Virus record (IMG/VR): IMGVR_UViG_3300044819_000068
Location: 1 to 33,807 of that record
Length of the DNA stretch: 33,807 nucleotides
Direction: 5' to 3' (one strand)
From: a virus
Positions 14,218-31,499 of the stretch are shown one piece after another. The notes under the pieces are model-generated. The model had not been told where the DNA came from, did not search any database, and saw only the letters and a program-made list of their open reading frames with translations. Position 1 is the first letter of the stretch, and the number at the start of each line of letters is the position of its first letter. The position numbers and the translations under genes were made by a program.

Positions 14218-14497
14218 AATCGCGGGATAACTTTTTTTGAGGGGAGGGTAGCTAGAACGGGAAAAATCGCCAGAATCGCGTTTAAATCGGTCGGTTGTTA
14301 CAGGTTAAAAACCGGCTGGCATGGCAATTGTTGTCGGTTTGAAAGTGACAGAAATTGTCAATGTGACGGTTTTGGTCAGGCGAGGGAAAACTGATGCGGG
14401 GCGACGACGCGGCCGGCGAGCGGGCGCAGATATTGCATGCTCACACACGAGCGCATCGGCCCGGCGCGATCAACGGGCCCCATTAGGAGCGGGAAGA

Positions 14498-15781
14498 ATG
14501 GAATCAGCAACGGAACAGATGTACCTCGAAGGGGTTAACATCATTAAGCTTCAATCAGCGGCAAGGATGGCGGGCCTTCGCTGGAAAAGCGGCGATCCTG
14601 CTTTCAATAAGAGTGGGATCATCGAAAAGCTCATGCAGCATCCCAGCATCCGGCGCGCGTGTATCGCCACGCTGCAACGGATGGGAGAAAACGCGCCGAG
14701 CACGCCGATTGACTTCACGCAAGACCTAACCGACGACGACGCATCGACCCCGGCGCAAGACACGCCGAAAGCTATTCCGCAAGCTCAGACCCCAGCGAGC
14801 GCAATGAGCGCTGCCGCGAGCCCAGCGGTTGATCTTTCCCCGATCCTCGAAAACCTCCGCGCATTGGATCGGCGCCTACGGACGAACGAGGCGATTGACC
14901 AAGCGCAGGAAGGTCAGCGCAAGACCCTAGAGGAAAACATCGACGTACTTTCCCGCGCGGTCGAGTCGTTGCAAGAGCAGAAGCCCATTCAGTTTAACTT
15001 CCCCTCTCGCCAACCCGTAACGATCAAGCCCGGCAACCATCACGCGCTTTTCCCGAAGATGATTAAGTACCTCGAAACGAATCGGCGCCTCATTCTCAGC
15101 GGCCCGGCCGGCACGGGGAAAAGCATGGCGTGCGCAAACGCGGCGGAGACGATGGGAGTTTCGTTCCATCTGTTGACGCCCGTTACAGCGTCGCATGAAT
15201 TGATCGGCCATCGTGACGCGCAAGGGGTTTTCCACGAGACTCCGCTCACGCTGGCTTACAAGCATGGCGGTTTGTGCCTGTTAGACGAAGCGGACGCATC
15301 CCTCGCCGACGCAATGCTTTGCGCGAATCCGATCCTCGACGGCAACGGATTTGCCATGCTCGGCGACGGCAAGATGCATAAGCAACACCCGGATTTTCTC
15401 GCGGTGCTCAACATGAACACCGACGGGAATGGCGCAACAATGCAATACGCCGGCCGGACACGCCTAGACGGGTCAACACTGGCCCGGTTCGGTTGCCGCA
15501 TCCTTTGGACGGTTGACCCGAGAATCGAAGCCGCAATGGCACGCGGGCAAGATTCATGGCTCCGTGTCGTTCACGCGGTTAGAGCGCTGATGACGCAACG
15601 CGAAATTGTGGACGTGAACGCTACCCCGCGCCACGTCAAAACCGGCGCGATGCTCTTGCAAGCAAACTGCGCAACGCGGAAGGAAATTCTTGAAGATTGC
15701 CTGATGAATGGAGCAGTCTCCGAAATGTGGCAGGATGTGCTTTCCCTCCCGCCCGTCCGTTCGTTTTTGCAAGGGGCTTAA
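14498..15781 (+). CDS. AAA+ ATPase, MoxR/CobS-like
   Basis: A 427-residue protein starting at the ATG with AGGAG nine bases upstream; longer frames to 14321 have no ribosome site. The N-terminus (residues 1-65) is a helical region, followed by a disordered linker, a coiled coil (about 115-165), and an AAA+ domain with Walker A GPAGTGKS (202-209), Walker B LLDEAD (261-266), sensor-1 Asn in VLNMNTDG (N305) and a probable arginine finger around LARFG (R330). The 'ILSGPAGTGKS..ELIGHRD..G.F..TPL..A' pattern is typical of MoxR/CobS ATPases, which remodel partners through a VWA protein. The next gene is a likely partner. Confidence 0.85.
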   Translation: MESATEQMYLEGVNIIKLQSAARMAGLRWKSGDPAFNKSGIIEKLMQHPSIRRACIATLQRMGENAPSTPIDFTQDLTDDDASTPAQDTPKAIPQAQTPASAMSAAASPAVDLSPILENLRALDRRLRTNEAIDQAQEGQRKTLEENIDVLSRAVESLQEQKPIQFNFPSRQPVTIKPGNHHALFPKMIKYLETNRRLILSGPAGTGKSMACANAAETMGVSFHLLTPVTASHELIGHRDAQGVFHETPLTLAYKHGGLCLLDEADASLADAMLCANPILDGNGFAMLGDGKMHKQHPDFLAVLNMNTDGNGATMQYAGRTRLDGSTLARFGCRILWTVDPRIEAAMARGQDSWLRVVHAVRALMTQREIVDVNATPRHVKTGAMLLQANCATRKEILEDCLMNGAVSEMWQDVLSLPPVRSFLQGA

Positions 15782-27599: not shown

Positions 27600-28211
27600 A
27601 TGGCTTGTCAGACACATCCTACAGAGCGCGGTCGATACTACGATGGAACTTCGTGGGTCTGTTTGGCTTGTTGGGAAAAAGGGGAAAAAATGAACTACAT
27701 CGATTTCGTCACCAGCCGCATCAAATGGCTGGAAAATCCAACCCTCGATATCGTCCACGCAGCGATGGGCCTTCTCGGCGAGGCGGTCGAGCATTGGGAA
27801 GCGCAGGACGCTTCCCATCAAAAAGAAGAACTCAGCGATATCGAGTTTTATCTCGAACACGCGATTCAAGCTCTTGTTAAAGCCGAGCGCCCGATCCAAG
27901 ACGCGCTCTCCCGAGAAGCCTTCAAGCTCCTCCACTCCGACCCGTGCGGCTCGATCCTCCACTGGTGCGCCGAGTTTCACGACCGCGCGAAAAAACTCTT
28001 CATCTACAACAAGCAAGATGTGAACTTTGCCGAGTGCGTCACCGCGATAAAACTCTGCCTCCATATCCTCGCGGTCGAGCACAACTGCCTCCGAGAAGAC
28101 CTTCAAGCCCAGAATCAGGCGAAGCTGGAGAAACGTTTTCCCACAGGTTATTCCGATGCGGCCGCTCAGGCGCGGGCGGATAAACAAGGAGTTCAAGATG
28201 ACCGTGCATAG
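27600..28211 (+). CDS. MazG-like nucleoside triphosphate pyrophosphohydrolase
   Basis: A 203-residue protein with the MazG-type motif: LLGEAVEHWE (E61, E64) then EELSDIEFYL (E77, D80), the four acidic residues that bind the metals. Phage MazG enzymes cleave (d)NTPs or ppGpp-like compounds. Start choice: ATG 27600 adds a 30-residue extension with a possible zinc site (C3, H6, C21, C24) but no ribosome site and lies right after a terminator. ATG 27690 has AAGGGGAAA ahead and begins with NYIDFVT. The shorter form is likely at least major. Confidence 0.78.
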   Translation: MACQTHPTERGRYYDGTSWVCLACWEKGEKMNYIDFVTSRIKWLENPTLDIVHAAMGLLGEAVEHWEAQDASHQKEELSDIEFYLEHAIQALVKAERPIQDALSREAFKLLHSDPCGSILHWCAEFHDRAKKLFIYNKQDVNFAECVTAIKLCLHILAVEHNCLREDLQAQNQAKLEKRFPTGYSDAAAQARADKQGVQDDRA

Positions 28212-28450: not shown

Positions 28451-28675
28451 ATGACCGAGCCTAGTATCACCCTCGTTACCCCGGGAAAATTCGACCCGGA
28501 CGGAATGCTTCTGAATAACCAATTCGCCGTAACCATCATCGCAATCCTCGTCATGCGCTTCGGGCCGCAAATATTCGAGCAAAGAGATTTCGACATGATC
28601 GCAAAACAACGCCTGACTGAGGGTTTCGACGACGCTGGTTTTAAGCTCTCAATCACAACCCCGCAAAATGCATGA
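28451..28675 (+). CDS. Hypothetical small protein, polymerase-adjacent
   Basis: A 74-residue protein with GGGATA ahead. It contains a helical hydrophobic patch (AVTIIAILVMRFGPQIF) and a helix (DFDMIAKQRLTEGFDDAGF). Its stop overlaps the next gene by 8 bases, so it is coupled to the exonuclease gene. Function unknown. Confidence 0.65.
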   Translation: MTEPSITLVTPGKFDPDGMLLNNQFAVTIIAILVMRFGPQIFEQRDFDMIAKQRLTEGFDDAGFKLSITTPQNA

Positions 28676-29771
28676 AGGCCCGATCCCAGCCGAGATTGCG
28701 ATACTAGTCGACTACCCCGAATCCTATGGCTGGGGTATTAAACCAGTGTTGGATAAACTGTCCAAGCTCGGCATCGGCTCAGGCTCAATCTTCATCCTAA
28801 GCCTCGCCGATTCCGCGCCCCCAAAAGGCGACGATGGCACGCCGGACATCGACCACTGGATCAGCACGCGGAAAACTTGCCCGGGAGCTGGCTGGACTAA
28901 GGAGTCAAACTGTTGGGTAAATTCTACACTTTCGCTTGGCATCGCTACGGCGAGGCAGAAGCTTGCCGAAGTCAATCCCAAGCTCGTAATTGCCCTCGGA
29001 AAAGCAACCCTACTATTTGCTACCGGACAAGAGAAAATTGCATCTTGGCGGGGTTCGAGGATGGTGACGGACCGGTTGACGTGCCCGGTTGTGCCGACAT
29101 ACCATCCTCGGATTCTTTCCCGCCAGCCTGAATCCCGTTTCATCATCGAAATGGACCTGACCCGTGCATACAACATCTACACCGGAAAACAAACCCCTCG
29201 GCATTATTCTTTTCAAATCGAACCCGATTTTGACAACGTTTCTCGCACGCTCTTTGATCTACTTCGACGGGCCGAAAACGGGCCGATGGTCCTTTCCGGC
29301 GACCTTGAAACCCGAGCCGGGCACATCGCCTGTTTTGGAATAGCTTGGTCGGCGACAGAGGCGATTTGTATCCCCCATCTCGTTATCAACGACACAAACC
29401 CATTCTACTGGCCGGCGGAAGAAGAAGCGATCCTAATCTCGCTCTATATCCAACTCTTCACCCACCCAAACATCGAATGGGTCGGCCAAAACTTCCTCTA
29501 CGATTGTCAATACTTCCACCGGCATTGGGGTGCAATGCCGTTGAAAGTGTTCGACACAATGATCGCGGCACATGCGCTCCACAGCAATATCAAAAAATCC
29601 CTCGATTTTCTCTCCTCGATGTACGCCCACGATCATGTGTACTGGAAGGGGGAAATCTCAGACTGGCACCCCGACCAAGGTGAGAAACAATTTTGGACGT
29701 ATAATTGTAAAGACTGTGTTGTAACTTGGGAAATAGCAGAAGTTTTAAAGGAAATAAGCCGTGAGAGATAA
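28668..29771 (+). CDS. UDG-like domain fused to 3'-5' exonuclease domain (amino half of a split family A DNA polymerase)
   Basis: A 367-residue protein. Residues about 10-150 resemble a uracil-DNA glycosylase fold: LVIALGKATLLFATG (107-120) and VVPTYHPRIL (141-150), as in family 4/5 type enzymes, with the first catalytic motif degenerate. Residues 205-360 form the 3'-5' exonuclease domain: LSGDLETRAG (D212, E214), VGQNFLYDCQYF (N275, D279) and TYNCKDCVVTWE (Y345, D349). The protein ends where the polymerase thumb would begin. A UDG-like N-terminus on a family A polymerase is known from phages such as SPO1. The polymerase domain is in the next-but-one gene. Confidence 0.85.
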   Translation: MHEGPIPAEIAILVDYPESYGWGIKPVLDKLSKLGIGSGSIFILSLADSAPPKGDDGTPDIDHWISTRKTCPGAGWTKESNCWVNSTLSLGIATARQKLAEVNPKLVIALGKATLLFATGQEKIASWRGSRMVTDRLTCPVVPTYHPRILSRQPESRFIIEMDLTRAYNIYTGKQTPRHYSFQIEPDFDNVSRTLFDLLRRAENGPMVLSGDLETRAGHIACFGIAWSATEAICIPHLVINDTNPFYWPAEEEAILISLYIQLFTHPNIEWVGQNFLYDCQYFHRHWGAMPLKVFDTMIAAHALHSNIKKSLDFLSSMYAHDHVYWKGEISDWHPDQGEKQFWTYNCKDCVVTWEIAEVLKEISRER

Positions 29772-30192
29772 ACGATTGCAACCATATTATCCTTTACACT
29801 CACTGCATCCTTTTGTGACGTGTTGGCGTGCAATGAATTCACGATGTACCGATCCAAACAATAATCGATACAAAAACTATGGTGCCCGAGGCATTAAAGT
29901 TCTATGGGTAACGTATCGTGAGTACGAACGAGATATGTTTTCTTCGTGGCAAGAAGGACTTCAGATTGACCGAATCGATGTAAATGGAGACTATTCTAAA
30001 GAAAATTGTCGTTGGGTAACAGCAGCACAGAATGCTCAAAACCGAACGAATAGTAAACTAAACCTTGCTCAAGTTGCAGAGATTAAAAAACGTTTCGGTG
30101 CAGGTGCAGCTTACCAAGAAAGCCTAGCAAAAGAGTTTGGTGTTTCTAGCCGGATGATCCGTTATATCGGAGCAGGTGGCGCATGGCGCTGA
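29761..30192 (+). CDS. Free-standing HNH homing endonuclease inserted in the polymerase gene
   Basis: A 143-residue protein with GTG start, AAAGGA ahead. Motifs are the N-terminal W..M..RCTDPNN.RYKNYGARGIKV block, then LQIDRIDVNGDYSKENCRWVTAAQNAQNRT (about 68-96), the typical HNH form with D-R-I-D, N-G-x-Y and the N-C-R-W end, followed by a C-terminal HTH (AEIKKRFG...SLAKEFGVSSRMIRYI). It is AT-richer than its neighbours. It overlaps the exonuclease stop by 11 bases and the polymerase start by 10 bases, so it splits the polymerase exactly at the exonuclease/thumb boundary. Confidence 0.9.
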   Translation: MRDKRLQPYYPLHSLHPFVTCWRAMNSRCTDPNNNRYKNYGARGIKVLWVTYREYERDMFSSWQEGLQIDRIDVNGDYSKENCRWVTAAQNAQNRTNSKLNLAQVAEIKKRFGAGAAYQESLAKEFGVSSRMIRYIGAGGAWR

Positions 30193-31499
30193 CTCGGCAT
30201 CAGGAACATTTAGAGTTTCAGCAAAAACAGTTTTTTCCTGTTTTGCGAATGATGAATCGCGGCCTCCGTTGGGATATGAAGCGTCGCGCCGAACTCAAGA
30301 AAGAGTTACTACAAATCGTCTTCGACCGCGAACAACAACTCAACTGGATCGTCGGATATGAAATCAACGCCAAAAGTCCCAAACAACTTCTTAACCTCTT
30401 CTATAATGAACTGGGCGTTCCCGGAATCAAAGCGTTGGGTAAGGAAACGCTGTCCACTAACTCACCAACTCTGCAAGAGATTGCCAGCCGCCACCCAATG
30501 TTGGCGCCGCTCTGTCAACTTATCACCGAACTGCGCAGTCTTGGAGTATTCCTCAGCAACTTTATCGACGCCGATGTGGATATTGACGGACGAATGCGGA
30601 CGAGTTTTGCTGTGGCCGGCCCCACGACCTATCGATATGCAAGCCGGGAGAACGCGTTTTATTCAGGGATGAACATGCAAAACGTCCCGGTGAAGGAAAA
30701 AGAAAAGATTAAAGGAAGTAAAGATTATGTCAAACTCCCAAACATCCGAGAACTCGCCCTTGCCGACCCCGGAAGAACCTTCTTCGACCTCGACCTCGAT
30801 CGAGCTGATATGCAAATTGTCGGATGGGAGTCCGACGATGCGGCCCTTAAAACGGCTCTCCGAAAAGGAATCGACCTACATTGTTGGTCAGCTTCTGAAA
30901 TCTTTGGGATTAAGGGAATCCCAGTAGATGAACTCGTCGAGTCGCATCCAAATTACCTTGAGCATCGAGGAAGAATAGGAAAGGCCAATCGTGACAAAAC
31001 GAAAAATGGCGGCCATGCCTGCGATTACGCTGTGGGAACGCCGAAGCTTGCCCAAACGCTCGGTATTACCCGGCACGAAGCAGATTTATTCAAGGCCCGA
31101 TGGTACGGCCTGTTTCCAGGCATTCGGAAGTGGCACAAGCGCGTCGAGCAAGCGGTCGCTGAAACGGGTTATCTCGAGAATATCTTCGGTGCGCGCTTGT
31201 ATCAATTCGGACGCTTTAATCTTCCAGAATTTCTGGGCTGGCAACCGCAGAGTACGGTGGCAGGCGTCATTAACCAGGCTTTGGTTCGTATTGATGCCGC
31301 GCAAATCGCAGGCGAGACAAGTATCGAACTTCTTATCCAAGTCCATGACAGTCTCGCGGGGCAGTTTGAGACGGCAAAGAAGGAAGCAGAAATCGCTAAT
31401 CTCCGCAAGTATGCGTCAATTGTTGTCCCGTATACCGATCCGTTGATTATTCCGGTCGGGATTAAGACTTCGTTAAAAAGCTGGGGAGACTGTAAATGA
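30183..31499 (+). CDS. Family A DNA polymerase, polymerase domain (carboxyl half)
   Basis: A 438-residue protein starting with thumb (LEFQQKQFFPVLRMMNRGLRWD), then palm and fingers. Motif A is FFDLDLDRADMQIVGWES (D206 likely catalytic; the usual Glu is Gln), motif B is the NRDKTKNGGHACDYAVG segment (R270, K274, Y282), and motif C is LLIQVHDSLAG (H388, D389). The domain starts exactly where an intact polymerase would continue after the exonuclease. It should copy the phage genome together with the upstream UDG/exonuclease protein. The ribosome site is GCAGGTGG, inside the HNH gene. Confidence 0.9.
   Translation: MALTRHQEHLEFQQKQFFPVLRMMNRGLRWDMKRRAELKKELLQIVFDREQQLNWIVGYEINAKSPKQLLNLFYNELGVPGIKALGKETLSTNSPTLQEIASRHPMLAPLCQLITELRSLGVFLSNFIDADVDIDGRMRTSFAVAGPTTYRYASRENAFYSGMNMQNVPVKEKEKIKGSKDYVKLPNIRELALADPGRTFFDLDLDRADMQIVGWESDDAALKTALRKGIDLHCWSASEIFGIKGIPVDELVESHPNYLEHRGRIGKANRDKTKNGGHACDYAVGTPKLAQTLGITRHEADLFKARWYGLFPGIRKWHKRVEQAVAETGYLENIFGARLYQFGRFNLPEFLGWQPQSTVAGVINQALVRIDAAQIAGETSIELLIQVHDSLAGQFETAKKEAEIANLRKYASIVVPYTDPLIIPVGIKTSLKSWGDCK

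Follow-up and report, generated by a model that had tools for sequence, protein, structure and literature searches.

The window, that is, the whole stretch of DNA analysed here, comprises 33,807 bases of a tailed phage. The virus record is metagenomic and possibly a fragment. The minus strand carries terminase, portal, major head and amidase genes, and the plus strand carries the replication genes. On the plus strand, a family A DNA polymerase is divided over two open reading frames (half A and half B), with a gene of the HNH family between them. Table 1 lists the three genes and their motifs.

Table 1. Genes and motifs of the divided polymerase locus; L007 is a relative with the same arrangement.
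Feature	Positions	Strand	Support or comparison
Half A: degenerate family-4 UDG-like domain and 3'-5' exonuclease, 367 aa	28668-29771	+	Pfam/PHROGs; 59% identity to L007 half A
Exo I motif DLETR, half A residues 212-216	29301-29315	+	
Exo II motif QNFLYD, half A residues 274-279	29487-29504	+	
Exo III motif YNCKD, half A residues 345-349	29700-29714	+	
11-nt overlap: HNH GTG start within the final codons of A; A stop TAA at 29769-29771	29761-29771	+	Same start codon and similar overlap in L007
HNH-family gene, 143 aa, I-HmuI-like, Arg replacing the catalytic His; predicted C-terminal helix-turn-helix	29761-30192	+	Family matches, model, composition
HNH residues D70-R71, aligned to I-HmuI D74-H75	29968-29973	+	
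HNH residue N82, aligned to I-HmuI N96	30004-30006	+	
Predicted C-terminal helix-turn-helix, HNH protein residues 102-137	30064-30171	+	AF2 model, pLDDT 88; weak fold matches, to HTH proteins only
10-nt overlap: half B ATG start within the final HNH codons	30183-30192	+	Same register in L007 (TTG or ATG)
Half B: family A polymerase thumb, palm and fingers, 438 aa	30183-31499	+	Pfam/PHROGs; 65% identity to L007 half B
Palm motif A DLDRAD	30792-30809	+	
Fingers motif RDKTKNGGHACDY (R-x3-K-x3-H-x3-Y)	30990-31028	+	R, K, H and Y invariant in the alignment
Palm motif C QVHDS	31338-31352	+	

The gene order, coordinates and overlaps agree with the initial annotation of this DNA. Pfam finds DNA_pol_A_exo1 in half A (E 3e-12) and DNA_pol_A in half B (E 1e-38). 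The elements of a family A polymerase with a 3'-5' exonuclease (Exo I-III and motifs A, B and C) are all present, distributed over the two ORFs. The exonuclease motifs had been said to end at residue 349 of half A, with polymerase motifs A-C in the third gene, and the position of Exo III bears this out. No second match to half B was found within the window.

The same layout is present in L007. There, half A ends in TAA overlapped by a GTG-started HNH gene of the same family, and half B begins inside the HNH end. The HNH proteins of the two phages are 42-43% identical. With the same order and overlaps at protein identities of 59, 43 and 65% (A, HNH and B), the three-gene layout is not a product of chance.

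A MazG-like pyrophosphatase gene (27600-28211) lies upstream of the window polymerase, and a similar-looking ORF is upstream in L007. Because of this gene, a 2-aminoadenine phage polymerase (DpoZ) was considered. Elsewhere in the window, positions 14321-15781 encode an ATPase-like protein matching PHROG 249 (E 3e-39), which is listed as porphyrin biosynthesis.

The UDG-like domain of half A (28668-29130) has lost GEAPG..GxPFVG, a family-4 motif that most relatives retain. The motif is missing in L007 and in another relative, L010, too. In half B, residue H278 of the fingers helix (31014-31016) occupies the position of E. coli Phe762 and is histidine throughout this polymerase lineage. Motif C consists of HDS instead of HDE.

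Position of the break and state of the two halves

Against the PHROG 17 (DNA polymerase) profile, half A matches up to position 826 and half B from position 838. The halves are therefore collinear, with nothing missing between them. In the unsplit relatives L008, L012, L088, L026 and L011, 18 residues separate FQQ from the Exo III helix (WEI/YEI); in L087 there are 20. In the window, 10 such residues close half A, ahead of its last Arg, and 8 follow MAL in half B; L007 has 11 and 7-8. These lengths match those of the unsplit relatives, so no residue has been lost at the junction, as the initial annotation had proposed. A few residues at the ends of A and B probably derive from the inserted element.

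An AlphaFold2 model of the unsplit L088 protein (mean pLDDT 89.6) has a fold that matches Pol I/Klenow. The junction corresponds to about residues 369-372, a short loop that connects helix 343-369 with helix 373-380. In this model, the break is the loop joining the last exonuclease helix to the first polymerase helix. Residue 16 of half B aligns to position 209 of the Klenow chain, approximately E. coli residue 532. This fits the known exonuclease/polymerase boundary, which we take to be near residue 518-520 in E. coli. Profile and model both place the split at the exonuclease/thumb boundary, where it had first been put.

Comparison of the window with L007 gives codon-position 1/2/3 divergences of 0.34/0.25/0.57 for A and 0.31/0.21/0.63 for B. 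Position 2 is far below position 3, so A and B are both conserved as proteins. The constraint on both halves fits a two-protein enzyme. Another reading is that only half B matters, as an exonuclease-free polymerase, and that half A is decaying. The Klenow polymerase domain functions without its exonuclease domain, and the UDG-like domain of A is degenerate (its UDG match has E 8e-5, whereas other relatives reach 3e-11 to 1e-28). However, Exo I-III are intact in both the window and L007. The position-2 divergence of A is also close to that of B and far under its own position 3. We consider this reading improbable.

The HNH gene and the search for a splicing element

The middle ORF matches PHROG HNH families (phrog_374, E 2e-32). 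By sequence, the best PDB match of its product is I-HmuI (1u3e), a weak one (E 0.013). The catalytic residues of I-HmuI are D74, H75 and N96 (PMC12724721). Residues D70 and N82 of the window protein align to D74 and N96. The Asp-His pair of I-HmuI-like HNH enzymes is nevertheless incomplete, since Arg71 stands in for the catalytic His75. The aligned HNH relatives in viral contigs present Asp(Glu)-Arg at this site, and all those examined have Arg at the His75 position. The alignments place the protein in a large family of phage proteins whose active site is altered, and it is a putative endonuclease. A Foldseek search with the HNH model gave no significant match and only weak helix-turn-helix hits.

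The HNH gene differs from its neighbours in composition. Its GC content is 42.6%, against 51.6% and 49.7% in A and B, and its GC3 is 0.30 against 0.58 and 0.53. The HNH gene of L007 is likewise AT-rich (GC3 0.39 against 0.61). Between the two phages, its codon-position 1/2/3 divergence is 0.41/0.42/0.61, less constrained than in A and B. The open HNH frame in both phages could reflect translational coupling, since a stop in HNH would cut off B. Among the best 80 HNH relatives, only one, L103, lies in this polymerase, and its contig is that of L007. Four others of these 80 lie within about 2-3 kb of weak polymerase matches.

The initial annotation had excluded an intein on the grounds that the frames are not continuous. 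The exclusion holds, but not the reason given for it. A and B share one frame, their starts (28668 and 30183) being a multiple of 3 apart, and it is the ten in-frame stops between them that rule out an intein. The shared frame could also favour a single chain made through frameshifting, readthrough or bypassing. Against this stand the same ten stops, the 19 found in L007, and the length of the insert: at about 410 nt, it is far longer than the T4 gene 60 bypass. A single chain of this kind is hardly conceivable.

A self-splicing intron too divergent for detection might instead remove the HNH gene and restore one polymerase mRNA. Introns often carry the HNH genes that are found within phage polymerase genes. 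Splicing was shown for phage CB7 (PMC7344957) and suggested for phage MQM1 (PMC10410586). However, an Rfam scan of the window and L007 gave no ribozyme match, even with E allowed up to 1 and 5. As RNA, the insert region folded no better than shuffles (z -0.74 in the window and -1.12 in L007). The HNH ORF occupies the entire insert and overlaps both halves, and in both phages the start and stop codons are positioned for independent translation. A cryptic intron is very improbable. The conserved ribozyme core of a group I intron was not found in these computations (Rfam and RNA folding), in line with the earlier doubt about such an intron. No ribozyme or intein that would speak against a free-standing split was detected computationally. 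Intron, intein and readthrough seem unlikely on these data.

Origin of the split and its recurrence in the lineage

A scan of viral contigs with the half B protein as single query gave no matches, so an alignment query was used. Polymerase alignments run against IMG/VR yielded nearly 100 loci over the first two rounds. The scan of bacterial and archaeal genomes gave no relatives. Three of the relatives discussed below, L007, L010 and L026, come from one metagenome (3300020045). The closest relatives are 58-65% identical in half B.

It had been suggested at the outset to align both halves with unsplit relatives. In close relatives, at 58-62% identity, the alignment gives a single continuous frame across the junction; those unbroken here are L087, L088, L008, L009, L011-L014 and L026. 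In the window, an endonuclease-family gene separates two consecutive parts of a gene that these relatives have in one piece. The nearest unsplit relative is 62% identical in half B, and the relatives include no nearly identical empty site. In the tree, the window and L007 form a clade (99/99 support), with the unsplit L087 adjoining (90/91). Since L007 has the same layout and shares this clade, the split is inherited, with both halves kept intact.

The relative L010 is broken at the same boundary around two non-HNH ORFs, each junction being an ATGA overlap. Because of this, the HNH gene could have entered a pre-existing split. The gene would then have been divided already, by fission or by other cargo genes, and the HNH gene would be a passenger in the gap. 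L047, L052 and L076 are split without any inserted gene, and a similar doubt exists in the literature over gene 43 of phage 25 (PMC2988022). Nevertheless, L010 is the sister of the unsplit L026 in the tree, and just two gains are required at the exonuclease/thumb joint. Grouping L010 with the window and L007 as a single clade is rejected (p-AU 3e-87). We consider a passenger HNH gene unlikely. The simplest reading of the tree is two separate splitting events at this joint; one old split with later re-fusions is formally possible.

Two coupled polypeptides probably work as one family A polymerase, following an ancestral HNH insertion. The enzyme would be made from one polycistronic message as A (UDG-like domain and proofreading exonuclease) and B (thumb, palm and fingers). 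A mobile gene of the HNH family, perhaps arriving by homing, would have inserted in codons of the linker that connects the last helix of the exonuclease to the first helix of the polymerase. This insertion would date to the common ancestor of the window phage and L007. The element would have given A its stop codon and B its start codon, and the result would be two overlapping genes bridged by the HNH frame. The two products may be translationally coupled, and they may assemble or co-operate on DNA.

HNH genes are also present directly after the polymerase in L010 (6263-6721), L016 (6278-6700) and L028 (4627-5106), a second insertion spot. In L016 and L028, they lie just before a DUF3987 primase-like gene.

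A mechanical survey covered 178 distinct polymerase contigs, 130 of them unbroken; the sample is non-random, one scan having been seeded with a split palm half, so these frequencies carry no meaning. A quick tree of 171 rows needs at least 19 changes of state in the split label, which may be gains or losses. The exonuclease/thumb joint accounts for 2 of these changes, the site before Exo III for 6, the site before palm motif A for 10 and the UDG domain for 1. Single contigs with one in-frame stop only (L028, L218, L270, L278 and L283) are possible errors. Not every break before Exo III is an assembly slip, since two metagenomes yield the identical L047 and L048, and in L052 and L076 the stop codon overlaps the start codon.

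In the L088 model, the three recurrent sites are the joint loop, a loop at 323-342 (pLDDT 62 in 331-340) and a loop at 533-552 (pLDDT <50 at 533-540). In L204 and L244, an HNH gene of the window's family lies in the break before Exo III, and in L300 one lies in the palm break. Another HNH-like type is found in the breaks of L335 (palm) and L078 (UDG domain; by sequence reading). Judging from these sequences, the polymerase lineage is broken repeatedly, mainly at three loops and several times with HNH genes.

A wider reading, which we offer tentatively as possible rather than probable, is that the replicative family A polymerase of this largely uncultured phage lineage is recurrently divided. 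HNH-type elements would break it repeatedly at a small number of flexible loops, namely ahead of Exo III, at the exonuclease/thumb joint and ahead of palm motif A. The bridge ORF would be kept since its frame carries ribosomes downstream. It could also be lost or replaced by cargo genes, the enzyme staying in two pieces.

Other arrangements were observed in the lineage. In L279 (2042-4492), Exo III is interrupted (YN|C...VVVHN|CED) by an insert that is in frame, resembles an intein and contains a DGEG (LAGLIDADG-like) stretch; it lies a short distance upstream of the window's break site. In a large related group within L260-L336 (e.g. L265, L267, L285, L319 and L336), the polymerase break lies immediately ahead of palm motif A, and the two parts are separated by 0 to about 2,900 nt. 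By sequence reading, a ribonucleotide-reductase-like gene occupies this space in L319 and L336.

The locus offers a natural test of whether separate proteins can supply proofreading and polymerisation in a replicative family A enzyme. The related whole, split and re-filled alleles give a series for tracing how selfish endonuclease genes make two genes of one. Such splits are also easily mis-annotated as introns or pseudogenes.

Comparison with known split genes

Free-standing endonucleases are known to split phage genes, as in Aeh1 nrdA/mobE, the T4 topoisomerase/mobA and phage 25 gene 43 (PMC2988022). In an open-access library, the search for divided family A polymerases turned up MEP401, MQM1 and CB7, but no description of an HNH gene that divides such an enzyme where its exonuclease and polymerase domains join.

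Some phage polymerases resemble the window in part. In Aeromonas phage MQM1, a family A polymerase I is found in three ORFs with an HNH ORF in the gap (PMC10410586). Unlike in the window, the pieces have 590, 115 and 56 aa, and the authors read them as putative introns (PMC10410586). Judged from the piece sizes, the MQM1 break is not at the exonuclease/thumb boundary. The OM43 phages MEP401 and MEP402 likewise have a family A DNAP in two ORFs with a small ORF between (PMC10580990). In contrast to the window, their break falls inside the polymerase domain, no homologue of the small ORF is known, and there is no HNH gene. The broken polymerases of these phages and of MQM1 were discussed as possible introns (PMC10580990, PMC10410586).

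Vibrio phage VS-ABTNL-3 and Caulobacter phage Kuura belong to the same UDG-exonuclease-polymerase lineage and are also split by small genes. Unlike in the window, these splits are before palm motif A and before Exo III, and the inserts have no HNH match. I-PfoP3I and phage CB7 present, as the window does, an HNH gene inside a phage polymerase gene. However, these are group I introns, with splicing demonstrated in CB7 (PMC7344957), whereas the window has no detectable ribozyme.

The arrangement is also like that of Aeh1 nrdA-a/mobE/nrdA-b, a free-standing HNH gene inside an essential gene. The NrdA split by mobE is active, its products forming a working enzyme (PMC2988022). Aeh1 differs in that its host gene is a reductase, while that of the window is a polymerase that would work as two chains. 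Gene 43 of the T4-like phages 25 and 44RR (43A/43B) is likewise a two-gene replicative polymerase, with the homing gene seg43 at the phage 25 break, and gp43A/B of phage 25 co-purify and polymerise (PMC2988022). Nevertheless, the phage 25 and 44RR polymerases are of family B and seg is of the GIY-YIG type. The window presents a family A enzyme and an HNH gene, and its break falls at the boundary of the exonuclease and polymerase domains.
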